64,000 nt of DNA from Christensenella minuta (GTDB lineage Bacteria > Bacillota > Clostridia > Christensenellales > Christensenellaceae). Of the stretch, positions 27,087 to 44,802 are shown piece by piece (positions within the stretch are counted from its first letter, which is position 1; every line of letters begins with the position of its first letter). The DNA is taken from NCBI RefSeq assembly GCF_003628755.1, contig NZ_CP029256.1:267585-331584 (forward strand), given 5' to 3'. Position numbers and translations under genes: made by a program. The notes beneath the pieces are model-generated. The model did no database searches. It was not told where the DNA came from and saw only the letters and a list, made by a program, of their open reading frames with translations.

Positions 27087-28445
27087 ATGGCAACAGTAGC
27101 AGAAATTTTCGAGCGTGCCCACAAGGCGCAGGCCGAGTACGAGAAGAATGCGAGCCAGGAACAGGTGGATGCGGCGGTAAAAGCAATCGGCAAAGTGGTT
27201 TACGACCGTGCCGAAGAGCTTGGGAAGCGCGCGGTGGAAGAGTCCGGCATGGGCGTGGTGGAAGACAAGATCGCCAAATGCCAGGGAAAATCCAAATGTA
27301 TCTGGAACAGCCTGAAGGGCAAAAAGTCCTATGGAATCATTGAGGAAAACAAGGAAACGGGCATCATCAAGGTCGCGAAGCCGAAGGGGGTTGTGGGCGC
27401 GGTAACGCCCGTCACCAACCCGGTGGTTACCCCGATGTGCAACGCGATGTTCGCGCTGAAGGGGAAAAACGCGATTGTGATCGCGCCGCATCCGCGTACG
27501 AGCGACCTCAACAAATATGTTGTGGACCTGTTCCGTGCCGAGCTTAAAAAGCTGGGCCTGCCGGAAGACCTGATCCAGACGATCGAGCATCCTTCGCTCG
27601 ATATGACGCAGGAAGTTATGAAAACGGCTGACGTCGTTGTGGCAACGGGCGGCGCAGGCATGGTAAAATCCGCGTATTCCAGCGGGAAACCGGCCCTTGG
27701 TGTCGGACCTGGCAACGTGCAGGTTATCATTGACCGCGGCGTTGACTATGACGCGGCGGCTTCCATGATTATTGCGGGGCGTAAATTCGATAACGGTATC
27801 ATCTGTTCGGGCGAACAGTGTGTAATGATCCCGTCGGACGAATATGATACGGTGATTAAAGCGTTTGAGAAGAACGGCGCTTACTATATTGATGATCCGG
27901 AGCAGGTTGAGAAATTTGCCGGGGCGATTTTCCCGGACGGCGTGATTAACAAGGACGTGGTTGGCCAGAGTGTGCAGAAGATTGCTTCCCTTGCGGGCGT
28001 TTCCGTACCGGAAGGCACAAAGGTCGTGCTCCTGAAAGCGCGCGGCCGCGGCAAGGCGGACCTGCTGTGCAAGGAGAAAATGTGTCCGTTCATGATCGCG
28101 ATCCCGTACGACACGTTCGACGACGCGATGAGCGCAGCCTATGAGAACCTTTGCTACGAGGGCAAGGGCCACACGTGCTCCATCCATTCAAACGATATGG
28201 AGCACGTACGCATGGTCGGCGAATATATGCCTGTGAGCCGTATTGTTGTCAACCAGCCTTCCTCCACGACGGCGGGCGGCGCGCTCACAAACGGATTCTC
28301 TCCTACCACGACGCTTGGCTGCGGTTCCTGGGGCAATAACAGCATTTCCGAAAATCTCAACTATACGCACCTGATTAACGTTTCGCAGATCGGCCTTTAC
28401 AATAAGGACAAGAAGATACCGACGGACGAAGAAATCTGGGCGTAA
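27087..28445 (+). CDS. sucD: CoA-acylating succinate-semialdehyde dehydrogenase
   Basis: A 452-residue aldehyde dehydrogenase of the CoA-dependent type that reduces succinyl-CoA to succinate semialdehyde. It has TPVTNPVVTPMCNAM, the nucleotide segment GPGNVQV and the active-site Cys in NGIICSGEQ. The start follows AGGAGGATTTTGAA. Location beside cat1 and the 4-hydroxybutyrate genes distinguishes it from acetaldehyde dehydrogenases of the same family. Confidence 0.93.
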   Translation: MATVAEIFERAHKAQAEYEKNASQEQVDAAVKAIGKVVYDRAEELGKRAVEESGMGVVEDKIAKCQGKSKCIWNSLKGKKSYGIIEENKETGIIKVAKPKGVVGAVTPVTNPVVTPMCNAMFALKGKNAIVIAPHPRTSDLNKYVVDLFRAELKKLGLPEDLIQTIEHPSLDMTQEVMKTADVVVATGGAGMVKSAYSSGKPALGVGPGNVQVIIDRGVDYDAAASMIIAGRKFDNGIICSGEQCVMIPSDEYDTVIKAFEKNGAYYIDDPEQVEKFAGAIFPDGVINKDVVGQSVQKIASLAGVSVPEGTKVVLLKARGRGKADLLCKEKMCPFMIAIPYDTFDDAMSAAYENLCYEGKGHTCSIHSNDMEHVRMVGEYMPVSRIVVNQPSSTTAGGALTNGFSPTTTLGCGSWGNNSISENLNYTHLINVSQIGLYNKDKKIPTDEEIWA

Positions 28446-29873: not shown

Positions 29874-31013
29874 ATGGATTTCACATTAAGCAAGGAACAT
29901 CAGATGCTCAGGACCCTGTTTCGGGACTTTGCTGAAAATGAAGTGAAGCCGCTCGCGGAGGAGCTGGACGAGGAAGAACGGTTCCCGGTCGAAACGGTGG
30001 AGAAAATGAGAAAATACGGCTTTTTGGGCATACCCTTCCCCAAGGAATACGGCGGGCAGGGCTGCGACACGCTTGCGTATATCATGTGCGTGGAAGAGCT
30101 TTCCCGTGTGTGCGGAACAACGGGCGTAATCGTGTCCGCGCATACGTCGCTCGGCTCAAACCCCATTAAGCAATTCGGCAACGAAGAACAGAAGCAGAAA
30201 TATCTCGTACCGCTCGCGAAGGGCGAAAAACTCGGCGCGTTCGGCCTTACCGAAGCCGGTGCGGGAACGGACGCTTCCGGACAGCAGACAAAGGCTGTAC
30301 TGGAAGGGGACCATTATGTTTTGAACGGCACGAAGATATTTATCACGAACGCTGGATATGCGGATACGTACGTAATCTTTGCCATGACGGATAAATCCAA
30401 GGGGAACCACGGCATTTCGGCATTTATCGTTGAAAAGGATTTCCCGGGCTTTTCGGTCGGCAAAAAAGAGCGTAAAATGGGGATACGCGGCAGCGCGACG
30501 GCGGAGCTCATCATGGAGAACTGCATCGTGCCCCGGGAAAACCTGCTGGGCAAGGAAGGCCAGGGATTCAAGATCGCGATGGCGACGCTCGACGGCGGCA
30601 GGATCGGTATCGCGGCGCAGGCGCTTGGCATTGCCGAGGGCGCGTTTCATGAAACGGTGGCCTATGTGAAGGAGCGCAAGCAGTTTGGCAAGCCGCTCTC
30701 CAAATTCCAAAATACGCAATTCGTGCTCGCGGACCTGAAGGCGCGCATCGATGCGGCACAGCTGCTCGTTTACCGTGCGGCGATTGCCAAGGATACGATG
30801 GACCGCTTCTCCGTCGAGTCGGCGACCGCAAAGCTCGTTGCGGCGGAAACGGCGATGGAAGTAACTACCAAATGCGTGCAGCTGATGGGCGGCTATGGAT
30901 ATACGCGGGAATATCCTGTGGAGCGCATGATGCGCGACGCAAAGATCACCGAAATTTACGAAGGCACCAGCGAGGTGCAGCGCATGGTCATCTCCGGCGC
31001 AGTTTTGAAGTAA
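29874..31013 (+). CDS. bcd: Butyryl-CoA (acyl-CoA) dehydrogenase
   Basis: A 379-residue flavoprotein of the acyl-CoA dehydrogenase fold. It has the family signatures [16 protein letters not shown] and [20 protein letters not shown], and the catalytic base Glu in [10 protein letters not shown]. In this operon it reduces crotonyl-CoA to butyryl-CoA. The etfB and etfA genes follow directly, as in clostridial Bcd-Etf complexes that couple the step to ferredoxin reduction. Confidence 0.94.
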
Positions 31014-31031
31014 AGCAGGAGGGATAACACA

Positions 31032-31814
31032 GTGAATATAGTTGTTTGCATCAAACAGGTACCGGATACGAATGAAGTGAAGCTCGATCCCAAGACGGGC
31101 ACGCTCATTCGCGAGGGCGTTCCCTCCATTATCAATCCGGACGACAAAGCGGGCCTTGAAGCGGCCCTGAGATTAAAAGATTCAATGGGCGCGAAAGTCA
31201 GCGTCATTTCCATGGGACCGCCGCAGGCGGACGTTGCGCTCAGGGAAGCGCTCGCAATGGGCGCGGACGAGGCGATCCTGATAACGGACAGGGCGTTCGG
31301 CGGTGCTGATACATGGGCGACTTCCTCCACTCTCGCTTCAGCGGTAAAGAAGCTGCCTTTCGATCTTATCATCACCGGACGGCAGGCCATCGACGGCGAT
31401 ACGGCGCAAGTCGGCCCGCAGATCGCGGAGCATCTTCATTTGCCCAACATCAGCTATGCGGAAGAGATCAAGGTCGAGGGAGACAGCATTGTCGTGAAGC
31501 GGCAGTACGAGGACCGGTACCATATCATCAAGGCGAAAATGCCGTGCCTTATTACGGCGCTTGCGGAGCTAAACGAGCCCCGCTATATGACGCCGATGGG
31601 TATCTGGGACGCCTACCACGAAAAGGAAGTTACCATCTGGACGCTCGAAGATCTCGATGTAGACCGGTCGAATATCGGCCTTAAAGGGTCTCCGACGCGG
31701 GTGTGGAAATCCTTTACCAAGCCCCTCAAGGCGGCGGGAACGGTCGTAAATACGGATGTTCAGGATTCGGTCCGGTTCCTGATGGACTCGCTCCGCAGTA
31801 AATTCGTACTGTGA
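31032..31814 (+). CDS. etfB: Electron-transfer flavoprotein, beta subunit
   Basis: A 260-residue EtfB starting at GTG 31032. It opens MNIVVCIKQVPDTNEVKLD and contains the flavin/nucleotide segment GRQAIDGDTAQVGPQ. Its length is that of EtfB paired with bifurcating Bcd. The stop is close to the EtfA start. Confidence 0.94.
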   Translation: MNIVVCIKQVPDTNEVKLDPKTGTLIREGVPSIINPDDKAGLEAALRLKDSMGAKVSVISMGPPQADVALREALAMGADEAILITDRAFGGADTWATSSTLASAVKKLPFDLIITGRQAIDGDTAQVGPQIAEHLHLPNISYAEEIKVEGDSIVVKRQYEDRYHIIKAKMPCLITALAELNEPRYMTPMGIWDAYHEKEVTIWTLEDLDVDRSNIGLKGSPTRVWKSFTKPLKAAGTVVNTDVQDSVRFLMDSLRSKFVL

Positions 31815-31831
31815 CGGAAAGTGGTGATACA

Positions 31832-32857
31832 ATGAATATACAGGATTATAAAGGCGTATTCGTATTCGCACAGCAGGAAGACGGTAAACTCGCGGGCGTG
31901 TCGCTCGAGTTGGTCGGCAAGGCAAAAGAGCTCGCGAAGGACCTTGGAACAGAAGTAACGGCGGTCGTCCTCGGATCGGAGATCCGCGATATGGCGAAAA
32001 AGCTTGGACGCTACGGTGCGGACAATGTGGTCCTCGCGGACGATCCGGGCCTTAAGGTTTATATGACGGAGCCTTATGCGCATGTATTGACGCAGATCAT
32101 TCAGGAAAAAAAGCCGGAAATCGTGCTCTACGGCGCGACGGCCATCGGCCGCGACCTAGCGCCGCGCGTATCGGCGCGTGTGCATACCGGCCTTACGGCG
32201 GACTGCACGGGGCTTGAGGTCGATCCGGAAACCAAAAACCTGCGCATGACGCGGCCCGCATTCGGCGGCAATATTATGGCGACGATCATCTGTCCGGAGT
32301 TCCGGCCGCAGATGGCGACGGTCCGCCCGGGCGTGATGCAGCGCATCCATCCGGCGGCGGAATCTTCTGCGAAGGTCGAAAATTACAAGGTGGAACTTCC
32401 ACGGGAAAGCTTCAATGTGGAAATTCTCGACATTGTGAAAAAGGTCAGCGACAAGATGGATATTCAGGATGCGAAAATACTCGTATCCGGCGGACGCGGG
32501 ATGGGCTGCCCGGAAAATTTCCAGTTGCTTGAAGACCTCGCGGCGGCGTTTGGAGGCGGTGCGACGGTAAGCTCTTCCCGCGCGTGCGTGGACGCGGGGT
32601 GGGTAGAGAAGGACAGGCAGGTCGGCCAGACGGGCAAGACGGTCCGTCCGGATCTTTACATTGCATGCGGTATATCAGGAGCCATCCAGCATCTTGCGGG
32701 CATGGAGGATTCGGACCTTATCATTGCCATTAATAAGGATGAATACGCGCCTATTTTTGAGGCGGCGGATTATGGCGTCGTGGGCGATGTGACAAAGATA
32801 CTGCCTGCGTTCACTGAGCAAGTGAAGCGTGCCATCGCGGAGAAAAACGAATCCTGA
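31832..32857 (+). CDS. etfA: Electron-transfer flavoprotein, alpha subunit
   Basis: A 341-residue EtfA. ATG 31832 has AAGTGGTGAT before it; a GTG at 31811 overlapping the etfB stop is a less likely start. The C-terminal FAD-binding half shows [25 protein letters not shown] and AINKD motifs. Together with EtfB it accepts NADH electrons and delivers them to Bcd and, by inference, ferredoxin. Confidence 0.94.
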
Positions 32858-33362: not shown

Positions 33363-34310
33363 ATGAGCAGGAAAGTAACGATCATTGGCGCTGGAAGCGT
33401 CGGTTCCACGATCACGTATACGATGGCGGTTAACGGACTCGCTTCCGAGATCGTAATGATCGACGTCAATACCGAGAGGGCGCTCGGCGAGGCGATGGAT
33501 ATTCGCCAGGGTACGCCGTTTTGTTCCCCGATCCAGATTTATGCGGGGACTTATGAAGATGCGAAGGATTCCGATGTAGTGGTCATCACATCTGGCATGC
33601 CCCGTAAGGCCGGCCAGTCCCGGATCGACCTCGCGCAGACTAATGTGGACGTGATCCGCGAAATTGCGCCGGAGATCGTAAAGCATGCGCCGGACGCGAT
33701 CTATATTCTTGTCAGCAACCCGGTGGACGTACTTACCTACACCTTTTGCAAGGTGTCCGGCCTGCCGGAAAACAGGATCATCGGCTCGGGCACAATCCTC
33801 GATACCGCGCGCCTGCGTTCGCGCCTTGCGGAATACCTCAGCATCAGCCAGAAGAGCATCCATGCCTATGTAATGGGAGAGCACGGCGACAGTTCTTTTG
33901 TCCCGTGGTCTACTGCGCGTGTGGGCAGCGTCGAAATACTTGACGACAAGGGCGGCTTCAACTTTACCGGCCGCATCAAGGCAAAGCTCAATCCGGAAGA
34001 GATCGAGCAGTATATCCGCACGTCGGGCGGCAAGATCATTGAGCGCAAGGGCGCGACCTTCTATGCGATCGCCATTTCGGTGTGCCATATCGTGGACTGT
34101 CTGTTCGGCAGCTCGAACCGCGTTATGACGGTTTCCTCCATGCTGCACGGCGAATACGGCATCGACGACGTGTGCCTCTCGATCCCGTTCATTTTTGGGC
34201 CGCAGGGTATCTGCGGAAACGTGCTTCCCGCAATGACGGAGCAGGAGCTTGAAAAACTCCAGCATAGTGCGGACGTCCTCAAAGGAGTCATCAAACAGGT
34301 TAATATCTGA
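33363..34310 (+). CDS. mdh: Malate dehydrogenase of lactate-dehydrogenase-like type
   Basis: A 315-residue NAD-dependent 2-hydroxyacid dehydrogenase with the N-terminal GAGSVGST motif and an LDH-like GEHGDSSF active site. The specificity loop reads [11 protein letters not shown]: Arg81 sits where lactate dehydrogenases carry Gln and malate dehydrogenases carry Arg, and Arg87 is the substrate-binding Arg. This predicts malate/oxaloacetate as substrates. Fumarase follows 14 bases later. The start follows AGGAGGATGCAGTA. Confidence 0.85.
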
Positions 34311-34324
34311 TTGGAGGGAACTAT

Positions 34325-35689
34325 ATGGAATACCGTATCGAACGGGACTCGATGGGAGAAATGAAAGTCCCGGCAGATAAATACTGGGCGGCGCAAACGC
34401 AGCGCAGCCTGCAGAATTTTGAGATCGGCGGGGAAGTAATGCCGCGTGAGATCACGCATGCGTTCGGAATTTTGAAGAAAGCGGCGGCGATCGCGAATTT
34501 CAACCTTGGCAAGATTAGCGAGGAAAAGAAAAATGCGATCGCGGCGGCGTGTGATGAAGTGGCCGCGGGCAAGCTCAATGACCATTTTCCGCTTGTGGTA
34601 TGGCAGACGGGCAGCGGCACGCAGTCTAATATGAACGCGAATGAAGTAATCGCTAACCGCGGAAACGAGATCGCGGGAGAAAAGCTGCTGCATCCGAACG
34701 ACGATGTGAATAAATCGCAAAGCTCAAACGATACGTTCCCGACGGCGATGCACATTGCCGCGGTGCTTGGGATCGAAGATAAACTGATGCCGCAGATGGA
34801 CGCGCTCATCGAAACGATGAAGAGGCTCGAGCGGGAAAACGAAGGCATTGTGAAGAGCGGCCGCACCCACTTGCAGGATGCGACGCCGATCGCATTTTCC
34901 CAGGAGATCAGCGGATGGCGCAACATGCTGGAAAAAACGAGGAAAATGCTGGAGGCGGCGCTTCCGGGTCTGAAAGAGCTTGCGCTCGGCGGCACGGCGG
35001 TGGGCACCGGCCTCAACGCGCCCGAGGGCTTTGCGGAAGAAATTGCAAAGCAGATAGGGCTTCTTACGGGGAAGGATTTCGTGACGGCGGAAAACAAATT
35101 TCATGCCTTAACGTCCAAGGATGATCTGGTATTCGCCCACGGTGCGCTCAAGGCGCTTGCCGCGAATATGATGAAGATTGCCAATGACGTACGGTGGCTG
35201 GCAAGCGGCCCGCGCTGTGGACTTGGAGAGATTTTTATTCCGGAGAACGAGCCGGGAAGCTCCATCATGCCGGGCAAGGTGAATCCCACCCAGTGTGAAG
35301 CGATGACGATGATTGCCGTGCAGGTGATGGCCAACGATGTGGCCGTCGGGATGGCGGCATCGCAGGGTAACTTTGAACTGAATGTATTTATGCCGGTGTG
35401 CATCTATAATTTCCTGCAATCCGTGCGGCTTCTCGCGGACGGTATCGCGTCCTTTAACAAAAACTGCGCGGCAGGCATCAAAGCCAACAGGGAAAAGATG
35501 GCGCACAACCTGCACAATTCATTGATGCTGGTAACGGCGCTCAACCCGTATATCGGCTACGATAATGCGGCCAAGACGGCCAAAAAGGCCTATAGGGAGA
35601 ATATCTCGCTGAAGGAGGCGTGCGTGGAACTCGGGTTCCTGACGCCCGAAAAGTTTGACGAGGTGTTCCATCCGGAAGAAATGGTGTGA
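34325..35689 (+). CDS. fumC: Class II fumarase
   Basis: A 454-residue iron-independent fumarate hydratase interconverting malate and fumarate. It has the superfamily signature [11 protein letters not shown], the [12 protein letters not shown] and [11 protein letters not shown] segments and [11 protein letters not shown]. It sits between malate dehydrogenase and the fumarate reductase complex genes, so it probably runs from malate to fumarate. Confidence 0.96.
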
Positions 35690-35810: not shown

Positions 35811-36611
35811 ATGAGATTTAGTTATTATCCGGGATGTACTTTGAAGACAAAGGCAAAAGACCTGGATCAATATGCGCGCGCATCTGCGGAGGCGCTCGGC
35901 GTGGAGCTCTGTGAACTGCCAGAGTGGCAGTGCTGCGGCGCGGTTTATCCGATGGCGGCTGACGAGGTTGCGACCAAGCTTTCGGCGGTGCGCGCACTCG
36001 CGGATGCCCGGGCGTCGTCGGGCGAGCTTATTACGCTCTGTTCGGCGTGTCATCATGTATTAAAGCGGGTCAACGGCGATATGAAGTCGAATGAGGATAT
36101 ACGCGGGAAGGTAAACCGCTATTTAAATCTTGATGAAGATTATGCGGGCGAAACAACTGTGCTGCATTACCTTGAAATGCTGCGTGACCGCGTGGGATTT
36201 GGCGAACTGGAGAAGAAAGTGGTAAACCCGCTCAAAGGCAGGAAAATCGGGGCCTATTACGGCTGCCTGCTGCTGCGTCCCGCCAAGGAGATGAAGTTTG
36301 ATAACCCGGAAAATCCGTCGATCATCGAAGACTTTATTGCGGCGCTCGGCGCCGTGCCGGTGAAATATCCGTACCGTAACGAATGCTGCGGCGGATATGT
36401 GGTGGTGGAGGATAAGCAGGCACCGAAGAAAATGAGCGGAAAGGTTCTGAGTTCGGCGGCCAAACATGGGGCGGAAGCCGTTGTGACGGCGTGTCCCCTG
36501 TGCAAATATAATTTGGAAGAAAACAGCGGGGAAACGGGCGTTTCGGTCTATTATTTCACAGAACTGCTCGCGGAGGCGCTGGGGCTTAAGGAAAGGGGCG
36601 AGGCACAGTGA
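35811..36611 (+). CDS. hdrB: Heterodisulfide reductase subunit B-like
   Basis: A 266-residue protein with two complete CCG domains, the ligand set for two non-cubane [4Fe-4S] clusters. The cysteines are at 9, 41, 42, 77, 80 and at 152, 192, 193, 228, 231, nearly the same numbering as the methanogen enzyme. The start is ATG 35811 after TTGGAGGC; the longer frame from 35655 overlaps fumC. It is the electron-delivering catalytic subunit of Hdr complexes, normally reducing a disulfide. No heterodisulfide substrate is expected in a Clostridium-like cell, so the acceptor here is open. Confidence 0.92.
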   Translation: MRFSYYPGCTLKTKAKDLDQYARASAEALGVELCELPEWQCCGAVYPMAADEVATKLSAVRALADARASSGELITLCSACHHVLKRVNGDMKSNEDIRGKVNRYLNLDEDYAGETTVLHYLEMLRDRVGFGELEKKVVNPLKGRKIGAYYGCLLLRPAKEMKFDNPENPSIIEDFIAALGAVPVKYPYRNECCGGYVVVEDKQAPKKMSGKVLSSAAKHGAEAVVTACPLCKYNLEENSGETGVSVYYFTELLAEALGLKERGEAQ

Positions 36612-37000
36612 CGGACGCACAAAAGGAACGCAAGGAGCTGGTGCTGCGGATGAGCGGCGTCGATCCCGGGAAGTGTATGACGTGCGGGAAATGCTCGGGA
36701 ACATGCCCGGCCTACGATGAGATGGAATATCATCCGCACCAGTTTGTTTCGATGGTCAAAAAGGGCAACATCGAACCGCTGATGAAATCGGAGTCCCTGT
36801 GGCAATGCCTTTCCTGTTTCGCGTGTATGGAACGCTGCCCGCGCGGCGTAGAGCCGGCAAAACTGATTGAAGCGGTGCGCCTGCTCGTGATTCGCGAGAA
36901 GGGCGGCAATCACTTAAGCTCGCAGGAAATTCCGGGAAAGCTGGATGAAAATATGCCGCAGCAGGCAATTACCAGCGCTTTCAGGAAGTACGGGAAGTAA
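36608..37000 (+). CDS. hdrC: Heterodisulfide reductase subunit C-like
   Basis: A 130-residue ferredoxin-like protein with two [4Fe-4S] motifs, CMTCGKCSGTCP and CLSCFACMERCP. It starts at GTG 36608, overlapping the hdrB stop (GTGA). It relays electrons between HdrA and HdrB. Confidence 0.92.
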   Translation: MTDAQKERKELVLRMSGVDPGKCMTCGKCSGTCPAYDEMEYHPHQFVSMVKKGNIEPLMKSESLWQCLSCFACMERCPRGVEPAKLIEAVRLLVIREKGGNHLSSQEIPGKLDENMPQQAITSAFRKYGK

Positions 37001-37022
37001 TAAACAGCGCAGAGAATGGGGT

Positions 37023-37111
37023 CCCCGCGCAATCTCGAATGAGCGAAGCGAATGAGTTTTGCGGGGCAGAGGAGCAGCAGCCCCAGGGAGGTTCGCGCAA
37101 AAGGGCGAACC
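37023..37111 (+). repeat. Hairpin-rich insert between hdrC and hdrA
   Basis: The 149-base gap, large for this tight operon, contains CCCCGC (37023-37028) / GCGGGG (37061-37066) and GGTTCGC (37090-37096) / GCGAACC (37105-37111), plus related phrases GAGCGAAGCGAATGAG and CGAGAGGAGTGAG. It looks like a short dispersed intergenic repeat that has entered the operon. Confidence 0.5.
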
Positions 37112-37149
37112 GGGTAAAAGGGCGCTGCGACGAGAGGAGTGAGTTTTTC

Positions 37150-39135
37150 TTGCAGAGGATAGGAGTTTTCGTCTGTTGGTGCGGAAGCAACATTGCGGCA
37201 ACCGTGGACGTCTCGGCGGTCGCCGCGGCGGTCAAAAACGAGCCGGGGGTTGTTCTCGCCACAGATTACCAGTATATGTGTTCCGAGGTCGGGCAGGCCA
37301 AGATCAAGGACGCGGTCAAAGAGCACGGGCTTACGGGGGTCGTGGTCTGTTCGTGTTCGCCGAGGATGCATGAAGCGACCTTCCGCAAAACGGCGGCGGC
37401 CGCGGGGCTTAATCCGTATATGGTCGAAATTGCAAATATCCGCGAGCAGTGCTCGTGGATTCATAAGGATAAAGAAGAGGGAACGGAAAAGGCGATCATC
37501 CTGGCGAAAGCGGCGATTGCCAAGCTGAACCTCAACGCTCCGCTGACTGCCGGAGAGAGTCCGGTCACAAAGCGCGCGCTTGTCATTGGCGGCGGTATCG
37601 CAGGGATCCAGACGGCGCTCGACATCGCGGACGCGGGCTATGAAGTAGATATCGTTGAAAAGTCGCCGACCATCGGCGGAAAGATGGCGCAGCTTGATAA
37701 GACGTTTCCTACGCTCGACTGCGCAGCATGTATCCTGACGCCTAAAATGGTGGACGCGGCACAGCACGAGAAGATTCACCTGTATACGTACAGCGAGGTA
37801 GAGAAGGTTTCCGGCTTTGTCGGCAACTTTACGGTGGATATCCGCAAAAAAGCGCGGAACGTAAAGGAAGACCTGTGCACGGGCTGCGGTGTGTGTATGG
37901 AGAAATGTCCTTCCAAAAAGGCGAAAAGCGAATTCAATATGGGGCTTAATACCCGCAGCGCTATTTATGTGCCGTTTGCACAGGCCGTGCCCAACGTACC
38001 GGTCATCGATCACAGTGCGTGCATTCACTATAAGACGGGAAAATGCGGCTTGTGTGAAAAGAGCTGTCCGTCAAACGCGATTGATTTTGAACAGCAGGAC
38101 GAGATTATCACACGGGAATACGGCGCGATCATCGCAGCGACGGGCTTTAATCCGATTCCCATGGATGATTTTGACGAATATGGGTATTCCCAAAGCCCGG
38201 ATGTGGTAACGAGCCTTGAGTTCGAGCGCTTAATGAACGCGGCAGGGCCCACAAAGGGCGTGCTGCTTCGCCCGTCGGACGGGAGGCATCCGAAAACGCT
38301 GGTGTTTGTGCAATGCGTAGGCTCGCGCGATACCACGGAGTGCGGAAAGCCGTATTGCTCCAAAATATGCTGCATGTATACCGCGAAGCACGCGATGCTT
38401 GTGCGGGAGAAATATCCGGACACGGAGGTTTATGTATTTTACATCGACGTGCGGACGCCGGGGAAAAACTTCGATGAGTTCCAGCGCCGCGCGGTAGAGC
38501 AGTATGGCGTGAATTACGTCAAAGGCATGGTCGGCAAGGTCGCGGAGGAAAACGGCGTGCTTAAGGTACAGGCGTCCGACCTCATCGGCGGCACGCAGAT
38601 GCATATCGATGCGGATATGGTGATCCTCGCGGCAGCGATCGAGCCGGATAAGAGCGCCCGTCCGCTGGCGACGATGCTGACGGCGAGCATGGATACGAAT
38701 GACTTTTTCACGGAAGCGCATCCCAAGCTGCGTCCGGTGGAAAGCCCGACGGCGGGCGTATTCCTCTCGGGCATATGCCAGGGGCCGAAGGATATCCCCG
38801 AAACGGTCGCACAGGCAGGGGCCGCCGCCTCTAAGGTCATTGGGCTGCTGGCAAAAGATAAATTGACGTGTAATCCGTGCGTAGCGGGTGCGAACGAGCT
38901 TTTGTGCAATGGGTGTTCGGCCTGCCAGAATGTGTGTCCGTACGGCGCGATCGAATATGTGGAAAAAGAGATCAACGACCACGGCGTGCGCGAAACGCGC
39001 AGAGTGGCGCAGGTCAACGAGGCCGTATGCCAGGGCTGCGGCGCGTGCACGGTTACGTGCCCGTCCGGAGCGATGGACCTCAAGGGCTTTACCAATAAAC
39101 AAATCATGGCGGAGGTGGACGCAATATGCAGGTAG
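37150..39135 (+). CDS. hdrA: Heterodisulfide reductase subunit A-like (FAD, Fe-S)
   Basis: A 661-residue flavoprotein and the likely bifurcation site. TTG 37150 lies 10 bases after GAGGAG; upstream residues in the same frame come from the repeat-like insert and are not family-like. Order of elements: N-terminal CWCG and CSCSPRMHE Fe-S region, FAD motif VIGGGIAGIQ (about residue 145), LDCAACILTP, ferredoxin motifs CTGCGVCMEKCP and CGLCEKSCP, an oxidoreductase body, then CNGCSACQNVCP and CQGCGACTVTCP. The stop overlaps flxD by 10 bases. Confidence 0.93.
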   Translation: MQRIGVFVCWCGSNIAATVDVSAVAAAVKNEPGVVLATDYQYMCSEVGQAKIKDAVKEHGLTGVVVCSCSPRMHEATFRKTAAAAGLNPYMVEIANIREQCSWIHKDKEEGTEKAIILAKAAIAKLNLNAPLTAGESPVTKRALVIGGGIAGIQTALDIADAGYEVDIVEKSPTIGGKMAQLDKTFPTLDCAACILTPKMVDAAQHEKIHLYTYSEVEKVSGFVGNFTVDIRKKARNVKEDLCTGCGVCMEKCPSKKAKSEFNMGLNTRSAIYVPFAQAVPNVPVIDHSACIHYKTGKCGLCEKSCPSNAIDFEQQDEIITREYGAIIAATGFNPIPMDDFDEYGYSQSPDVVTSLEFERLMNAAGPTKGVLLRPSDGRHPKTLVFVQCVGSRDTTECGKPYCSKICCMYTAKHAMLVREKYPDTEVYVFYIDVRTPGKNFDEFQRRAVEQYGVNYVKGMVGKVAEENGVLKVQASDLIGGTQMHIDADMVILAAAIEPDKSARPLATMLTASMDTNDFFTEAHPKLRPVESPTAGVFLSGICQGPKDIPETVAQAGAAASKVIGLLAKDKLTCNPCVAGANELLCNGCSACQNVCPYGAIEYVEKEINDHGVRETRRVAQVNEAVCQGCGACTVTCPSGAMDLKGFTNKQIMAEVDAICR

Positions 39136-39575
39136 AAAAGCAAAAAGCGGGCGAATTTAAGCCTTTGATCGTCGCGTTTTGCTGCAACTGGTGCAGTTAT
39201 GCCGGTGCAGACCTCGCGGGAACGAGCCGCCTCAACTATCCGGCCAACGTAAAAATTATCCGCGTACCCTGCTCATGCAGGGTAAATCCGCTGTTTATCC
39301 TGCGGGCGTTCCAGCGCGGTGCGGACGGCGTGATTATCAACGGGTGCCACCCGGGAGACTGCCACTATTCGACGGGGAACTATTATGCGCGCCGCCGTAT
39401 GGCGCTTTTGTTCAGTATGCTTGAATACCTCGGCATTGAAAAAGGACGCACGCGTGTGGAATGGGTGTCGGCGGCTGAAGGCCAGCGCTTTGCGCAGGTG
39501 ATGAATGAATTTGTAGAGACCATCCATGGTTTGGGTGAGAATAAGAGACTGGAGGATCTGAGATGCAAGCGGTAG
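39126..39575 (+). CDS. flxD: MvhD/FlxD-like iron-sulfur subunit
   Basis: A 149-residue protein with the family motifs FCCNWCSYAGAD, VPCSCRV and NGCHPGDCHY, cysteines that bind a [2Fe-2S] cluster. It links HdrA to the NADH-oxidising (Flx) or hydrogenase (Mvh) arm. No hydrogenase gene is near, so the Flx reading is preferred. Overlaps both neighbours. Confidence 0.92.
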   Translation: MQVEKQKAGEFKPLIVAFCCNWCSYAGADLAGTSRLNYPANVKIIRVPCSCRVNPLFILRAFQRGADGVIINGCHPGDCHYSTGNYYARRRMALLFSMLEYLGIEKGRTRVEWVSAAEGQRFAQVMNEFVETIHGLGENKRLEDLRCKR

Positions 39576-40540
39576 AGAAAGCAATCAGGGAAAAAGCGCG
39601 CGCGCTGCTTGCGGACGGCACGGTGGACCGGGTGCTCGGCTGGGAAAAGGGCGACTATTGCTACGACAATACGCCTGCTGTTTTCACGGCGGAAAATTTG
39701 GACCGTCTCGTATACAACAGTTTCTGCGGCGCGAATTTGAGCAAATATCTCATTGCGGAGAGTAAAAAAGAGGGCAGGGTGCTTGCGCTTTTAAAGCCCT
39801 GCGATACCTATAGCTTCAACCAGCTTATAAAGGAACACCGGATCGACCGGGAAAAGGTCTATGTGCTGGGTATCCCCTGCCACGGCATCGCGGATGTGGA
39901 AAAGCTGAATGTGAGAGGCATCAAGGGCATCGAAAGCATCTCGGAGGACGGCGGAAAGCTCATAGTGCAGACGATGTATGGCGAAAAAGAGTGCGAATTA
40001 AACGACGTTCTGCTCGAACGCTGTTTAGCCTGCAAGGGACCGGAATATATGGCGGCGGACGATACGGTCGAAGACCCGGCGCCGGTGGAGCTTCGCACAC
40101 ACGGTCGGTTCGGTATGGTCGAAAAGCTCATGCAGATGACGCCGGACGACCGGTTCGGGTTTTGGCGCAGCGAGCTTTCAAAGTGCATCCGCTGCAATGC
40201 GTGCAGGAATGTGTGTCCTGCATGCTCATGCCTGAAGTGCGTGTTTGACAACGACGCATCGGGCGTCGGCAGCAAGGCGAATGTGGATACGTTTGAAGAA
40301 AACATGTTCCATATCATTCGCGCGTTTCACGTCGCGGGCCGGTGTACGGACTGCGGGGAATGCAGCCGCGTGTGCCCGCAGGGGATTCCGCTGCATCTTT
40401 TGAACCGCAAGTTCATTCGTGATATCAACGAAAATTACGGCGAATATCAGGCCGGTGCGGACGACAACTCGCCATGGCCGCTGGTGGACTACACGCAGGA
40501 CGATGTGGAGCCAGGCGCCATCAAAGGAGGGAAGAACTGA
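39563..40540 (+). CDS. flxC: FlxC-like iron-sulfur protein with FrhB-like N-terminus
   Basis: A 325-residue protein. The first half (about 1-160) resembles the F420-hydrogenase beta-subunit fold (LKPCDTYSFNQLIKE, PCHGIADVEKL). The second half has two [4Fe-4S] motifs, CIRCNACRNVCP followed by CSCLKC, and CTDCGECSRVCP. It is much larger than a simple ferredoxin. It overlaps flxD by 13 bases and flxB by one base. Probable electron relay between FlxAB and HdrA; the exact subunit correspondence is inferred. Confidence 0.78.
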   Translation: MQAVEKAIREKARALLADGTVDRVLGWEKGDYCYDNTPAVFTAENLDRLVYNSFCGANLSKYLIAESKKEGRVLALLKPCDTYSFNQLIKEHRIDREKVYVLGIPCHGIADVEKLNVRGIKGIESISEDGGKLIVQTMYGEKECELNDVLLERCLACKGPEYMAADDTVEDPAPVELRTHGRFGMVEKLMQMTPDDRFGFWRSELSKCIRCNACRNVCPACSCLKCVFDNDASGVGSKANVDTFEENMFHIIRAFHVAGRCTDCGECSRVCPQGIPLHLLNRKFIRDINENYGEYQAGADDNSPWPLVDYTQDDVEPGAIKGGKN

Positions 40541-41571
40541 TGCAGAAAATAGCGATAGACCGCATTCCGGAGCTTTTTTCCGCGATTGCCGCAGAGCGGG
40601 CATTATATCTTCCCCTGAAGAAAAAAGGCGCGGTCAATTTTGGGAAGTGGGAGAAAGGCGCAGAGGTAGACCTCAGTGCGCTCCATACAGTGAAATCCCC
40701 GAAGGATCTGTTTTTCCCGCAGAGTGAGGACCTGGTTTCCTTCAAGATGCAGGGAAAAGAAATTTCTGTCGACGCCCCGGATGCCCCGGATGAGAAATTC
40801 GTCATTTTCGGAGTGCGCGCATGCGACGCAAAGGGGATGGAAGTTCTCGACAGGGTATTTCTCTCCGACCCGGTGGATACCTACTACCAGGCACGGCGGA
40901 AAAACGGCGTCGTTGTAACGCTTTCGTGCTCCGCGCCGGAAGAAACGTGTTTTTGTTCGGTGTTTGGGATCGATCCGGCACGGCCGGGCGGGGATGTTTC
41001 CGCATGGATCGCGGACGGCGGGCTCTATGTAAAGGCCTTGACGGAAAAGGGAGAAGCGTTCCTTTCCGGGCTTTCGCTGCTTGAGGCGGCGGATGAAGCG
41101 GAGATCGAACCGGCCGTAAAAGCTCTTGGGGAGATCATGGAAAAGCTTCCCTTGAAGGACCTCGACCTTAATGGAATCGACGGAAATGCGACTGAAAAGC
41201 TGTTCGGTTCCGAACAATGGACGGAGCTTTCCCGGGCGTGCCTTGGCTGCGGAACGTGCACTTATGTATGCCCGACCTGCCAGTGCTACGACATCCGCGA
41301 TTTTGATACGGGAAGGGAAATCCGGCGTTACCGCTGCTGGGATTCGTGTATGTATTCCGATTTTACGCGCATGGCGCACGGGAATCCGCGCAAAAGCCAG
41401 GTGGAGCGTTTCCGCCAGCGGTTCATGCACAAGCTTGTATACTTCCCCGCCAACAACGACGGGATGTATTCATGCGTAGGCTGCGGACGCTGCGTTGCAA
41501 AGTGCCCGATCTCCATGAATATTGTAAAGGTCGTAAAAGCGTTGGGACCGGAGGCGAGGAATAAGGTATGA
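40540..41571 (+). CDS. flxB: FlxB-like iron-sulfur subunit (sulfite reductase A-like)
   Basis: A 343-residue protein similar in plan to anaerobic sulfite reductase subunit A: an alpha/beta region with GVRACDAKGMEVLDRVF, then two [4Fe-4S] motifs CLGCGTCTYVCP and CVGCGRCVAKCP near 235 and 320. The ATG at 40540 overlaps the flxC stop. It transfers electrons between FlxA flavin and the rest of the complex. Confidence 0.85.
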   Translation: MQKIAIDRIPELFSAIAAERALYLPLKKKGAVNFGKWEKGAEVDLSALHTVKSPKDLFFPQSEDLVSFKMQGKEISVDAPDAPDEKFVIFGVRACDAKGMEVLDRVFLSDPVDTYYQARRKNGVVVTLSCSAPEETCFCSVFGIDPARPGGDVSAWIADGGLYVKALTEKGEAFLSGLSLLEAADEAEIEPAVKALGEIMEKLPLKDLDLNGIDGNATEKLFGSEQWTELSRACLGCGTCTYVCPTCQCYDIRDFDTGREIRRYRCWDSCMYSDFTRMAHGNPRKSQVERFRQRFMHKLVYFPANNDGMYSCVGCGRCVAKCPISMNIVKVVKALGPEARNKV

Positions 41572-42401
41572 ATATGAGACACGATACGCTGATCCCGCAA
41601 ATCGGGGTCATTACGGATATCAGGAAGGACACGCCGGACGTAAAAACATTCCGTGCGGTGTCACCCGGGGGGGGCGTGGTTTTCAAGCATATGCCCGGCC
41701 AGTGCGCCATGCTTTCCATCCCGGGGGTAGGAGAAGCGATGTTTTCCATCACTTCGTCGCCGACGAATACGGAATTTATGGAATTCAGCATTAAAAAGTG
41801 CGGCTGCCTTACGGACTGGCTGCACCAGATGGATGTTGGGCAGCAGATTACGATTCGCGGACCGTACGGCAATGCGTTCCCGGTGGAAACGGAGCTTCGC
41901 GGCAAGGACCTGCTGTTTATTGCCGGCGGCATCGGCCTCGCGCCGCTGCGCTCGGTAATCAACTATGTGCTGCATTACCGTGAAAATTATGGGAAGGTCG
42001 ATATCGTCTATGGTTCGCGCTCCAAGGAAGATCTTGTGGATTTCGATGAAATCAAAAACGAATGGTCGAATGCGGAAAATGTGAACGTATATCTTACGAT
42101 TGACCGCGAACAGGAAGGCTGGGACGGTCATGTGGGCTTTGTGCCTACTTATGTGAAAGAACTCGGCTTTTCTACGGATAAAACGGCGCTCGTATGCGGA
42201 CCGCCGATCATGATAAAATTCGTTCTGGGCGCGCTTTCTGAGCTCGGTTTCGATAAGACGCAGGTTTATACGACAATGGAGCTGCGGATGAAATGCGGAG
42301 TCGGCAAGTGCGGACGCTGCAACATCGGTTCCAAATACGTGTGCAAGGACGGACCGGTTTTTCGCTGCGACGAGCTTGAAGAACTGCCGGACGAGTACTG
42401 A
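41568..42401 (+). CDS. flxA: FlxA-like FAD/NAD(P)H-binding subunit
   Basis: A 277-residue ferredoxin-reductase-fold protein. The FAD motif reads FSITSSP, the NAD(P) motif GGIGLAPLRS, and VCGPPIM ends the nucleotide domain. A C-terminal four-cysteine region (CGVGKCGRC, then VCKDGPVF) holds a [2Fe-2S] cluster as in PyrK. It is the entry point for NADH. It overlaps flxB by ATGA. Confidence 0.9.
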   Translation: MNMRHDTLIPQIGVITDIRKDTPDVKTFRAVSPGGGVVFKHMPGQCAMLSIPGVGEAMFSITSSPTNTEFMEFSIKKCGCLTDWLHQMDVGQQITIRGPYGNAFPVETELRGKDLLFIAGGIGLAPLRSVINYVLHYRENYGKVDIVYGSRSKEDLVDFDEIKNEWSNAENVNVYLTIDREQEGWDGHVGFVPTYVKELGFSTDKTALVCGPPIMIKFVLGALSELGFDKTQVYTTMELRMKCGVGKCGRCNIGSKYVCKDGPVFRCDELEELPDEY

Positions 42402-42425
42402 TTGAGAGGAGAGACACAGAAGGTT

Positions 42426-43127
42426 ATGGAGAAAATGGTAAATGTCTTCCTGTTTGGAAAAAAATATAGTGTCCCAGCGGGCCTTACCATCATGGGGGCG
42501 ATGGAATACGCGGGATATAAGCTTGTGCGCGGATGCGGATGCCGCAACGGTTTCTGCGGAGCGTGCACGACGATCTACCGCGTCAAAGGTGACAACACGC
42601 TGAAATTCTGCCTTGCGTGTCAGACAACGGTGGAGGACAATATGTATGTTGCGACCCTGCCGTATTTCCCGATTGTGAAGCCGCTTTACGATATCGGGGA
42701 GGTGCGCCCGGACGAGCAGGTCATGATGCAGCTTTATCCGGAAATCTACAAGTGCATCGGCTGTAACGCATGTACCAAGGCATGTACGCAGGATTTGAAG
42801 GTCATGCAGTATATCGCGCACGCCCAGCGCGGCGAATACGGCAAATGCGCAGAGCTTTCGTTTGACTGTGTGATGTGCGGAGCATGCTCCGCGCGCTGCC
42901 CTGCCGAGATATCGCATCCGCAGGTGGCGGTCCTTGCGCGCAGGCTTACCGGAAAATATATCGCGCCCGAAGCGAAACACCTTACACAGCGCGTGAAGGA
43001 CATTGAGCACGGCGACTTCACCCAGCTGCTCGAGGATGTGGCGGCAAAGCCCATTGAGGAACTGAAAGAGCTTTACAACCACAGGGAAATCGAAAGCGAC
43101 CAGACGGCACCGACAGACGAGGATTAA
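42426..43127 (+). CDS. frdB: Fumarate reductase iron-sulfur subunit (thiol:fumarate-reductase-B-like, short form)
   Basis: A 233-residue iron-sulfur protein. The N-terminal half has a [2Fe-2S] motif (CRNGFCGAC and a later Cys pair), followed by CIGCNACTKAC and CVMCGACSARCP for two further clusters. Unlike methanogen TfrB it lacks a C-terminal CCG (HdrB-like) half. ATG 42426 is chosen, with GAGGAG 13 bases upstream; ATG 42435 is also possible. No membrane-anchor gene follows. Confidence 0.85.
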   Translation: MEKMVNVFLFGKKYSVPAGLTIMGAMEYAGYKLVRGCGCRNGFCGACTTIYRVKGDNTLKFCLACQTTVEDNMYVATLPYFPIVKPLYDIGEVRPDEQVMMQLYPEIYKCIGCNACTKACTQDLKVMQYIAHAQRGEYGKCAELSFDCVMCGACSARCPAEISHPQVAVLARRLTGKYIAPEAKHLTQRVKDIEHGDFTQLLEDVAAKPIEELKELYNHREIESDQTAPTDED

Positions 43128-43140
43128 GGAGGCGGGAAAT

Positions 43141-44757
43141 ATGTTTACACCGGAAATGCTTGCTTCGGCGAAGAAAGTCGAGGCGACAAGGGCACAGAGG
43201 ATCGGCATGGAGCCGAAAAGGATGACCGCCGAAGAAAAGCACAATCTGCTGCGGGAATTTCATCCGGATTATAAGACGGATGGCTTTGAAAATTTGAAAA
43301 TAGGTCCCAATAAAGGGGAAAAAGTCCCGAAGGAGCTGGCGGCGCTTTTGCAGGCAAACAGCCGCGTCAAAGGGCTGGACCTTGATCTTGGCCGTATTGC
43401 CTATGATGTGGACGTGCTCATCATAGGCGGCGGCGGCGCGGGCGCGTCTGCGGCTATCGAGGCCGCGGGCGGCGGCGCGAACGTGATGGTTGTGACTAAG
43501 CTGCGGATGGGCGATGCGAACACCATGATGGCGGAGGGCGGCATCCAGGCTGCCGACAAGGCGAACGATTCCCCGGCAATCCATTACCTTGATGCGCTCG
43601 GCGGGGGACATTATGCAAACAAGCCGGACCTGCTGAAAAAACTTGTGACAGAAGGGCCGGGGGCCGTCAAATGGCTCAACGATCTCGGCGTGATGTTTGA
43701 TAAAGCGCCGGACGGCACGATGATTACCACGCACGGCGGCGGTACGTCCCGCAAGCGTATGCACGCGGCGCGCGATTATTCGGGCGCAGAGATCATGCGC
43801 GTGCTGCGCGACGAGGTTTGGAACAGAGGAATCCCGGTTGTGGATTTCACAGCGGCAGTGGAATTGATTCTCGATGAAAACGGCCGTGCGGCAGGCGCTG
43901 TGCTGCAAAATATGGAAACGGGCGAATACCTGGTGGCGCGCGCGAAGACGGTGATTCTTGCGACTGGCGGCGCGGGCAGGCTGCACTACCAGGGTTTTCC
44001 GACTTCGAACCACTATGGTGCGACGGCGGACGGCCTCATTCTTGCCTACCGCGCGGGAGCGAAGCTGCTTTATCAGGATACGCTGCAGTACCATCCGACG
44101 GGCGCGGCCTTCCCGGAACAGATATTCGGTGCTCTTGTAACGGAAAAGGTGCGTTCGCTCGGGGCGATGCTCATCAACTCAGAGGGCGAGGCATTTATGC
44201 ATCCGTTGGAAACGCGCGACGTCGCGGCAGCTTCCATCATCCGCGAATGCAAGGCGCGCAAGAAGGGAATCCCGACCCCGGAAGGCTGCGGCGTATGGCT
44301 TGATACGCCGATGATCGATATGATTCACGGCGAAGGAACGCTTGAAAAACGAATCCCGGCAATGCTGCGGATGTATATGAAATATGACATCGATATGCGC
44401 GAGGTGCCGATTCTTGTCTACCCGACGCTGCACTATCAGAACGGCGGCGTCGATATTTCGGTTGACGGCCAGAGCGGCGTGGAAAACCTATTTATCGCCG
44501 GTGAAGCGGTAGGAGGCATCCACGGCAGGAACCGCCTGATGGGCAATTCGCTTCTCGATATCATCGTATTCGGGCGCAACGCGGGCAAGAACGCGGCGGC
44601 AAAGGCGAAGAATGTAAAGGGCGGAAAGCTGACCCTTAGGCATGTGGAAGCCTATGCGCAGGAAATGGCGGATGCCGGCATCGTGAGCGATAAGGTGTCT
44701 CCGCTGTTGCTTCCGACCTATACGCATGGCCGCGAAAAATGGCAGGCGGAAAAATAA
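43141..44757 (+). CDS. frdA: Fumarate reductase flavoprotein subunit (soluble, Tfr-like)
   Basis: A 538-residue FAD enzyme reducing fumarate to succinate. The dinucleotide motif LIIGGGGAGASAA begins near residue 93, so there is an N-terminal extension of about 90 residues (with KIGPNKGEKVPKELA). The motif that carries covalent FAD in SdhA/FrdA (HTxxAEGG) reads NTMMAEGG: Asn127 replaces His, so FAD should be non-covalent. Catalytic-site segments QYHPTGA, TRDVAAA, LHYQNGG and GRNRLMGNS are present. No cytochrome b or anchor subunit follows. Confidence 0.9.
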   Translation: MFTPEMLASAKKVEATRAQRIGMEPKRMTAEEKHNLLREFHPDYKTDGFENLKIGPNKGEKVPKELAALLQANSRVKGLDLDLGRIAYDVDVLIIGGGGAGASAAIEAAGGGANVMVVTKLRMGDANTMMAEGGIQAADKANDSPAIHYLDALGGGHYANKPDLLKKLVTEGPGAVKWLNDLGVMFDKAPDGTMITTHGGGTSRKRMHAARDYSGAEIMRVLRDEVWNRGIPVVDFTAAVELILDENGRAAGAVLQNMETGEYLVARAKTVILATGGAGRLHYQGFPTSNHYGATADGLILAYRAGAKLLYQDTLQYHPTGAAFPEQIFGALVTEKVRSLGAMLINSEGEAFMHPLETRDVAAASIIRECKARKKGIPTPEGCGVWLDTPMIDMIHGEGTLEKRIPAMLRMYMKYDIDMREVPILVYPTLHYQNGGVDISVDGQSGVENLFIAGEAVGGIHGRNRLMGNSLLDIIVFGRNAGKNAAAKAKNVKGGKLTLRHVEAYAQEMADAGIVSDKVSPLLLPTYTHGREKWQAEK

Positions 44758-44765
44758 AAAATCAG

Positions 44766-44793
44766 AAAAACCGTCCGGCAGGGGCGGTTTTTT
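44766..44793 (+). terminator. Terminator of the mdh-frd operon
   Basis: AAAACCGTCC pairs with GGGGCGGTTTT (one wobble) around a GGCA loop, followed by six T. Confidence 0.88.
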
Positions 44794-44796
44794 GGT

Positions 44797-44802
44797 TATA
44801 AT
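44797..44802 (+). promoter_or_regulatory. -10 box of the metallo-hydrolase gene
   Basis: TATAAT directly after the preceding terminator and 35 bases before the start codon; the T-rich terminator arm takes the -35 place. Confidence 0.5.

Follow-up and report, generated by a model that had tools for sequence, protein, structure and literature searches.

The window analysed here, a 64,000-nucleotide stretch of the Christensenella minuta genome (GCF_003628755.1, NZ_CP029256.1, positions 267,585 to 331,584 of the forward strand), contains at 35811-44757 a set of nine genes that join an Hdr-Flx module to a fumarate reductase; all coordinates below are window positions. As the original prediction had described, the nine are contiguous and complete open reading frames (ORFs) on one strand (+), in the order HdrB, HdrC, HdrA, FlxD, FlxC, FlxB, FlxA, FrdB and FrdA, and each has the expected domains. 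The gaps between successive genes are −4, 38, −10, −13, −4, −4, 0 and 13 bases, that is, nearly all of the genes overlap or abut. Together with their immediate flanks they are as follows.

33363-34310, +: mdh, a protein of the NAD (nicotinamide adenine dinucleotide)-dependent lactate/malate dehydrogenase family, probably malate dehydrogenase (L-lactate dehydrogenase models over cut-off)
34325-35689, +: fumC, class II fumarase, malate to fumarate (Lyase_1, E-value 3.7e-112, and FumaraseC_C)
35811-36611, +: hdrB, of the clade that accompanies fumarate reductase, with two CCG domains (noncubane cluster); proposed adapter to FrdBA
36608-37000, +: hdrC, 130 amino acids, 4Fe-4S dicluster protein (two [4Fe-4S])
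37039-39135, +: hdrA, flavin adenine dinucleotide (FAD) fold, four ferredoxin motifs and other Fe-S ligands; proposed bifurcating site
39126-39575, +: flxD, electron input subunit of the MvhD/FlpD type (FlpD, E 8.5e-57)
39563-40540, +: flxC, 4Fe-4S dicluster subunit (domain match)
40540-41571, +: flxB, Fe-S subunit resembling sulfhydrogenase beta and AsrA (Fer4_22, E 1e-30; ShyB model 191 bits, below cut-off)
41568-42401, +: flxA, proposed entry point of NADH (NAD_binding_1, E 8.6e-18; DHODB Fe-S; FAD_binding_6)
42426-43127, +: frdB, [2Fe-2S] domain and dicluster part with two four-Cys [4Fe-4S] motifs; the ORF may begin at 42402
43141-44757, +: frdA, flavoprotein of a soluble, TfrA-like fumarate reductase; its FAD is predicted to be non-covalent (FAD_binding_2, E 7.2e-69)
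44760-44797, +: hairpin with a T run, likely transcript end (−19.1 kcal/mol, z −5.28)

FlxB probably starts at the ATG at 40540 and FrdB at that at 42426, which has AGGAGA in front of it. The start of HdrA is less sure, because the N-terminal ~38 residues of its ORF are not common to most relatives (47 of 54 have a gap at position 30). The transcription unit is probably larger than the nine genes, with mdh and fumC directly upstream on the same strand and the hairpin, which a separate pattern scan did not list, closing it directly 3′ of FrdA. A promoter scan found 11 sites, where shuffled sequence gave 8.0 on average, and we therefore give it no weight. The product of mdh has an Arg in its substrate loop, as do all 42 of the neighbours aligned at 50% identity or more, a residue we take to mark malate rather than lactate specificity; lactate dehydrogenase was set aside for this gene on that ground.

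Conserved features of the subunits

Residue conservation was counted only over relatives whose match spans 85% or more of the protein in question (FrdA 80, FrdB 75, FlxA 70, HdrB 55, HdrC 55 and HdrA 54), drawn from a scan of named genomes with the FrdA alignment in which the best 80 of at least 587 relatives were kept. The complete ligand sets that had been noted in HdrB are borne out, both CCG sets being kept in 55/55 relatives, and HdrC retains eight Cys in 55/55. HdrA aligns over residues 40-696 with the solved bifurcating HdrA of Methanothermococcus type (5odc_A, E 3e-207) and scores 797 bits on the HdrA2 model, below its cut-off of 1100. Its four ferredoxin motifs, likewise noted earlier, are kept in 54/54 relatives along with the other Fe-S ligands and the CCMYTAK residues; the second motif has an unusual first spacing, C-x7-C-x2-C-x3-C. 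In FlxA, the NAD and FAD motifs seen earlier correspond to matched FAD, NAD and DHODB-type Fe-S domains. In many other genomes the HdrA gene has one in-frame TGA, as in selenocysteine-containing HdrA, and at three loci (L181, L182 and L190) such a TGA splits it into frames of ~200 and ~460 amino acids; the window HdrA has none.

At the position of the His that we take to be the site of covalent FAD attachment in E. coli FrdA, the window FrdA carries Asn127, and this residue is Asn in 80/80 relatives. Non-covalent FAD in other enzymes favours fumarate reduction over succinate oxidation. H318, E335, R338, H431 and R465 are also kept in 80/80, with the fumarate-site His and Arg aligned to those of E. 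coli FrdA. On the TfrA model FrdA scores 328 bits (cut-off 718). L-aspartate oxidase was considered for FrdA and rejected: NadB models give at most 261 bits, below cut-off, and the neighbours are fumarase and mdh.

FrdB keeps 12 ligand Cys in 75/75 relatives, comprising a [2Fe-2S] set, C118/121/124/128 and C156/159/162/166. A three-Cys motif denotes the [3Fe-4S] cluster next to a quinone site; since both of these motifs in FrdB have four Cys throughout, it lacks the [3Fe-4S] pattern. Against solved structures FrdB gives only weak matches, the best at E 1.3e-5 (the alpha subunit of carbon monoxide dehydrogenase/acetyl-CoA (coenzyme A) synthase, CODH/ACS, and RnfC) and SdhB at 3e-5. By sequence, the C-terminal dicluster part of FrdB (ORF 42402-43127) is closer to RnfC and CODH/ACS alpha than to SdhB.

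Two model comparisons point from HdrBC to FrdB. Among NCBIfam models HdrB scores best on SdhE, with 151 bits against a cut-off of 500, and reaches 138 on the methanogen HdrB model; the model of TfrB, the fused subunit of thiol:fumarate reductase, matches FrdB (19-94), HdrC (135-220) and HdrB (263-487) in that order, at 27-39 bits per part against a cut-off of 385. These matches make HdrBC likely partners of FrdB.

Gene order and the HdrB clade across genomes

The original prediction had suggested searching other genomes for the same order, and we found it widely kept: of the named loci, 55 extend 8.2 kb or more upstream of FrdA, and in every one of them the order and strand of the nine genes are unchanged. 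Among 25 loci with less upstream DNA, 24 show the matching shortened set in order, the exception being L139, which begins inside FlxB and has an out-of-order FlxC match. FumC lies upstream in 34/55 and an Mdh-like gene in 44/55 (~2.5 kb upstream examined). The best 80 come mostly from gut Clostridia, with Treponema, Synergistaceae and a metagenome-assembled genome of Bacteroidaceae also represented. Blautia glucerasea (L109) and Clostridium asparagiforme (L092) carry the same nine genes, so cultured strains are at hand. By kinship to C. minuta, strong FrdA matches occur in 5/5 genomes of the same genus, 5/12 of the same family and 2/13 of the same order.

A scan of 398 genomes of the phylum found FrdB in 39, the own genome included, at E ≤6e-70, the next match being at 1e-10. 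The other 38 loci have varied layouts: the complete nine genes in permuted order in 5, HdrC-HdrB-FrdB-FrdA without HdrA in 5 (in L038 FrdA lies past the contig end), and HdrC-HdrB-HdrA with a second HdrA-like flavoprotein, FlxD/FlxC-like genes and FrdBA in 9, plus 2 truncated loci. This variety indicates that the linkage of Hdr to FrdBA outlasts much rearrangement, yet is not universal.

Several individual loci deserve description. In L042, L043, L045, L047-L050 and L054, an FrdBA-Hdr variant has the second HdrA-like flavoprotein in place of FlxAB; that of L042 adjoins malic enzyme, 2-oxoacid:ferredoxin oxidoreductase and a succinyl-CoA ligase subunit and resembles published clusters of the reductive tricarboxylic acid (rTCA) cycle. 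The FrdBA family also occurs with no Hdr genes nearby, beside malic enzyme and two-part fumarase genes in L034, L037 and L046 and beside pyruvate carboxylase in L064 and L067. L044 has FrdBA beside Fe-S proteins with parts that resemble HdrC and parts that apparently span the membrane, possibly a membrane-linked variant, and the HdrB of the FrdBA clade sits elsewhere in that genome (L186).

The phylogeny of HdrB separates the copies that accompany FrdBA. Its input was 70 loci (38 from the phylum scan, 12 of the 80 named ones and 20 around HdrA, these last taken from 12 genomes with FrdBA and 8 without), which yielded 50 rows from 49 loci and a tree of 51 proteins; one row, L153, was omitted from one comparison on account of in-frame stops. 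A branch with support of 100/100 parts 39 proteins from 12. All 39 come from FrdBA genomes, 32 from beside FrdBA and 7 with FrdBA elsewhere. The 12 comprise six from FrdBA-negative genomes, five second copies and one of the two copies of L041; the second copies belong to five genomes that have an ordinary HdrCBA-Flx cluster and a separate HdrCB pair of the FrdBA clade beside FrdB. A constraint placing the 11 ordinary rows (without L041_2) in one clade was not rejected (p 0.138). The clades are told apart by five alignment positions (48, 73, 78, 83 and 155), most of which are next to cluster ligands. At L041, HdrB proteins of both clades lie side by side with FrdBA.

With the window HdrB as query against the 398 genomes, every one of the top 28 genomes (≥206.6 bits, 11 families) belongs to the 39 that have FrdBA, which is absent from the next genome, at 195.6 bits. 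Besides the own genome, the 28 include 5, 5 and 10 genomes with the respective linked layouts and 7 of the 17 in which no HdrB lies near FrdBA. HdrA itself (E ≤1e-80) is found in 35/39 FrdBA genomes versus 107/359 others. The best explanation of these patterns is that the HdrB clade is dedicated to FrdBA, with HdrBC probably acting as the adapter between a shared HdrA-Flx core and the fumarate reductase.

Genome background and the succinate-to-butyrate genes

Genome-wide searches covered part of the single-contig genome. There, CCG domains occur only in the window HdrB, and the only full-length FAD_binding_2 protein found is the window FrdA (234.6 bits, versus 33.6 for the next); a search with the FrdA protein gave no second FrdA. 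The predicted lack of a membrane anchor agrees with the operon, which has no anchor gene, and Sdh_cyt (PF01127) was not found in the part of the genome covered, in a search whose control was positive in 7/14 and which did not include anchors of the FrdC/FrdD type. MqnA-type menaquinone genes were not found there either, and MenD-like matches reach 75.7 bits against a cut-off of 244.2. The Rnf complex is complete, with six subunits over cut-off.

Directly upstream of mdh-fumC-hdr-flx-frd, the window has at 19866-32857 genes leading from succinate through 4-hydroxybutyrate and crotonyl-CoA to butyryl-CoA.

19866-21314, +: AbfD-like 4-hydroxybutyryl-CoA dehydratase/vinylacetyl-CoA isomerase (790 bits to 1u8v; HpaB_N/HpaB)
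22135-23445, +: 4-hydroxybutyrate CoA-transferase-like protein (517-549 bits to 3gk7 and 3eh7)
23460-24572, +: Fe-type alcohol dehydrogenase by Pfam, candidate 4-hydroxybutyrate dehydrogenase (model for that enzyme 105 bits, below cut-off)
25376-26842, −: succinyl-CoA:acetate CoA-transferase (694.7 bits, cut-off 500)
27087-28445, +: SucD-like, CoA-acylating succinate-semialdehyde dehydrogenase (620 bits to 8cei)
29874-32857, +: acyl-CoA dehydrogenase, etfB and etfA, candidates for crotonyl-CoA to butyryl-CoA (best models acryloyl-CoA reductase subunits, below cut-offs)

Because these genes adjoin the operon, succinate is probably an intermediate on the way to butyrate here. Propionate was set aside as an end product, as no methylmalonyl-CoA mutase was found in the part of the genome covered. 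In 5/5 genomes of the same genus the CoA-transferase, SucD, Acd-EtfBA, Mdh, FumC and the nine genes form one stretch, which, over the DNA examined, includes the alcohol dehydrogenase and second CoA-transferase in 3/5 and AbfD in 1/5. Butyrate genes were not seen in the DNA examined around FrdBA in four of the five genomes from other genera of the family that have a strong FrdA match, nor near FrdBA at 118 loci of other genera (80 named and 38 from the phylum, E 1e-40).

Proposed mechanism, alternatives and known systems

We consider it likely that the nine genes encode a soluble fumarate reductase that takes its electrons from NADH and, by bifurcation, reduces ferredoxin as well, with HdrBC as the adapter. 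The hydride of NADH would enter at FlxA and its electrons be relayed by FlxBCD to the FAD of HdrA. From there, one electron of the pair would run downhill via HdrC and HdrB to FrdB and the FAD of FrdA, where fumarate would become succinate, and the other uphill via the ferredoxin domains of HdrA to ferredoxin, which once reduced would pass its electrons to the Rnf complex. The net reaction would be 2 NADH + fumarate + 2 Fd(ox) → 2 NAD+ + succinate + 2 Fd(red), with Fd for ferredoxin. An E0′ of +33 mV is given for fumarate and −320 mV for NAD in PMC5861303; taking literature potentials, with −420 to −500 mV for ferredoxin, we calculate −18 to −49 kJ/mol for the coupled reaction, a figure that varies with the potential assigned to NAD. 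All the parts, their conserved linkage, the HdrB clade, an operon free of anchor genes and the complete Rnf are read from the sequence, and from these we infer complex formation, the electron path, bifurcation and its direction. The split of NADH electrons between ferredoxin and fumarate that had been proposed is, in this sense, the best explanation: its link between Hdr and Frd now has comparative backing, and bifurcation within a complex is still a deduction.

A number of observations weigh against this reading. No HdrB lies near FrdBA in 17/38 phylum loci; HdrB of the FrdBA clade is missing from 11/39 FrdBA genomes (in one, G254, the locus is on a cut contig), and four of the 39 (G067, G071, G296 and G380) have no HdrA match, from which it follows that FrdBA can use other donors. 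Three genomes with FrdBA of the pyruvate carboxylase type, which belong to a single family, lack any HdrA match, and FrdBA must therefore have a further donor. The HdrB rows were chosen by us, the genomes are related rather than independent, so that the Fisher values for the HdrB comparison overstate significance, and the 206-bit line for HdrB was set after seeing the data. The AlphaFold2 model of FrdB is too weak for use (predicted local distance difference test score, pLDDT, 52.1). In the open PubMed Central (PMC) literature we found no paper that proves a bifurcating fumarate reductase biochemically, nor any in which that term occurs.

The same gene linkage would be seen if Flx-Hdr merely wired NADH to FrdBA, giving an NADH:fumarate reductase without bifurcation in which the HdrA ferredoxin branch is unused or serves as an input, and the 2026 Blautia luti paper (PMC12773636), in the portion available, assumes an NADH-dependent fumarate reductase in its balance of adenosine triphosphate (ATP). 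We regard this as unlikely: a simple NADH enzyme would need no HdrABC, the HdrA ferredoxin-domain, other Fe-S and CCMYTAK residues are kept throughout and align to bifurcating 5odc_A, and Pseudoclostridium thermosuccinogenes ceases succinate production under H2, which fits ferredoxin coupling (PMC7282089, available part). HdrB might instead reduce a disulfide with bifurcation, the resulting thiol then serving FrdBA as in thiol:fumarate reductase. The two noncubane clusters of HdrB are as expected of a disulfide enzyme, which makes a thiol intermediate possible and also counts against direct transfer, and the TfrB model matches FrdB, HdrC and HdrB. However, the distribution of the HdrB clade follows that of FrdBA rather than that of any thiol gene, and HdrCB adjoins FrdB even with HdrA elsewhere, which together point to protein contact and make such a relay distinctly unlikely.

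That Flx-Hdr and FrdBA are two separate enzymes sharing an operon, the one reducing another disulfide and the other having its own donor, would accord with the FrdBA genomes that lack HdrA and with the loci beside pyruvate carboxylase. It seems very unlikely nonetheless, given a linkage kept across five layouts, the dedicated HdrB clade and the finding of no other CCG protein in the part of the genome covered. Reverse operation, that is, succinate oxidation driven by reduced ferredoxin (confurcation), draws on other genomes, in which related FrdBA genes have malic enzyme, fumarase or 2-oxoacid:ferredoxin oxidoreductase as neighbours. Here, by contrast, the predicted non-covalent FAD, which in other enzymes goes with a bias toward reduction, a reductive butyrate route fed by succinate and the failure to find methylmalonyl-CoA mutase render it extremely improbable.

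Building on bifurcation through an HdrBC adapter as the reading we favour, we put forward a wider and tentative proposal, to which we give slightly less than an even chance. HdrA-Flx may be an interchangeable core for bifurcation to which alternative high-potential arms attach, of which one HdrBC clade would be the fumarate-reductase arm, joined here to the succinate-to-butyrate route, so that C4-dicarboxylates would be converted to butyrate with two soluble ferredoxin-reducing steps, fumarate by Hdr-Flx-Frd and crotonyl-CoA by acyl-CoA dehydrogenase/EtfAB, both feeding Rnf. Neither an HdrB clade dedicated to FrdBA nor the link to a butyrate route was found described earlier in the open PMC literature. 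If the bifurcating mechanism is right, succinate formation in many anaerobic Firmicutes conserves energy without a membrane or quinone. A dedicated HdrB clade provides a marker by which Hdr complexes coupled to Frd can be recognised from sequence, and it illustrates how different acceptors may be supplied from a single bifurcating core. ATP balances that assume a plain NADH-dependent fumarate reductase would be too low, as for Blautia luti, where fumarate reductase was measured with methyl viologen, 3.05 to 3.15 ATP per glucose were given and the available main text has neither Hdr nor Flx (PMC12773636).

The system is not undescribed, as had been supposed, since the same gene set is in print. 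A 2020 paper on P. thermosuccinogenes (PMC7282089), in the part available, describes a "succinate operon" of fumarase, seven Flx-Hdr and two fumarate reductase genes, proposes ferredoxin coupling with a 2019 preprint by Koendjbiharie and van Kranenburg cited, and reports the operon up ~4-fold under CO2 limitation. Going by its printed description, that operon agrees with the window in having fumarase, seven Hdr/Flx and two fumarate reductase genes; it is followed by a possible transporter, whereas the window has mdh and the butyrate genes adjoining. A Flx-Hdr-Kor-Tfr complex was suggested for rTCA bacteria in 2019, and the clusters there, going by the passages available, also have Flx-Hdr genes interspersed with a soluble fumarate reductase, tfrAB, but are tied to 2-oxoglutarate:ferredoxin oxidoreductase (korABCD) in autotrophs, unlike the fermentative setting of the window (PMC6315080). 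The window system is a further member of this proposed but unproven kind.

Among other relatives, FlxABCD-HdrABC of Desulfovibrio vulgaris, reportedly the subject of Ramos 2015, has the same seven subunits without a fumarate reductase, and an HdrB of the ordinary type is expected there; a 2014 paper on Desulfovibrio alaskensis is said to link fumarate reduction with Hdr-Flox in its title. The 8-methylmenaquinol:fumarate reductase SdhABE likewise has a CCG subunit beside a fumarate reductase, SdhE, the model on which the window HdrB scores best, but it is membrane and quinol linked according to the available part of PMC2680327, and the window's genome has no menaquinone genes that we found. Quinol:fumarate reductase and complex II share with the window FrdA the fumarate-site His and Arg, and differ in the covalent-FAD His, the [3Fe-4S] pattern and the anchor gene, all of which the window operon lacks. 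The methanogen thiol:fumarate reductase TfrAB resembles the window system both in its TfrA-like FrdA and in the parts of TfrB, which correspond to FrdB, HdrC and HdrB; in the window, by contrast, these subunits are split, their scores lie far below the Tfr cut-offs and an HdrA-Flx module has been added.

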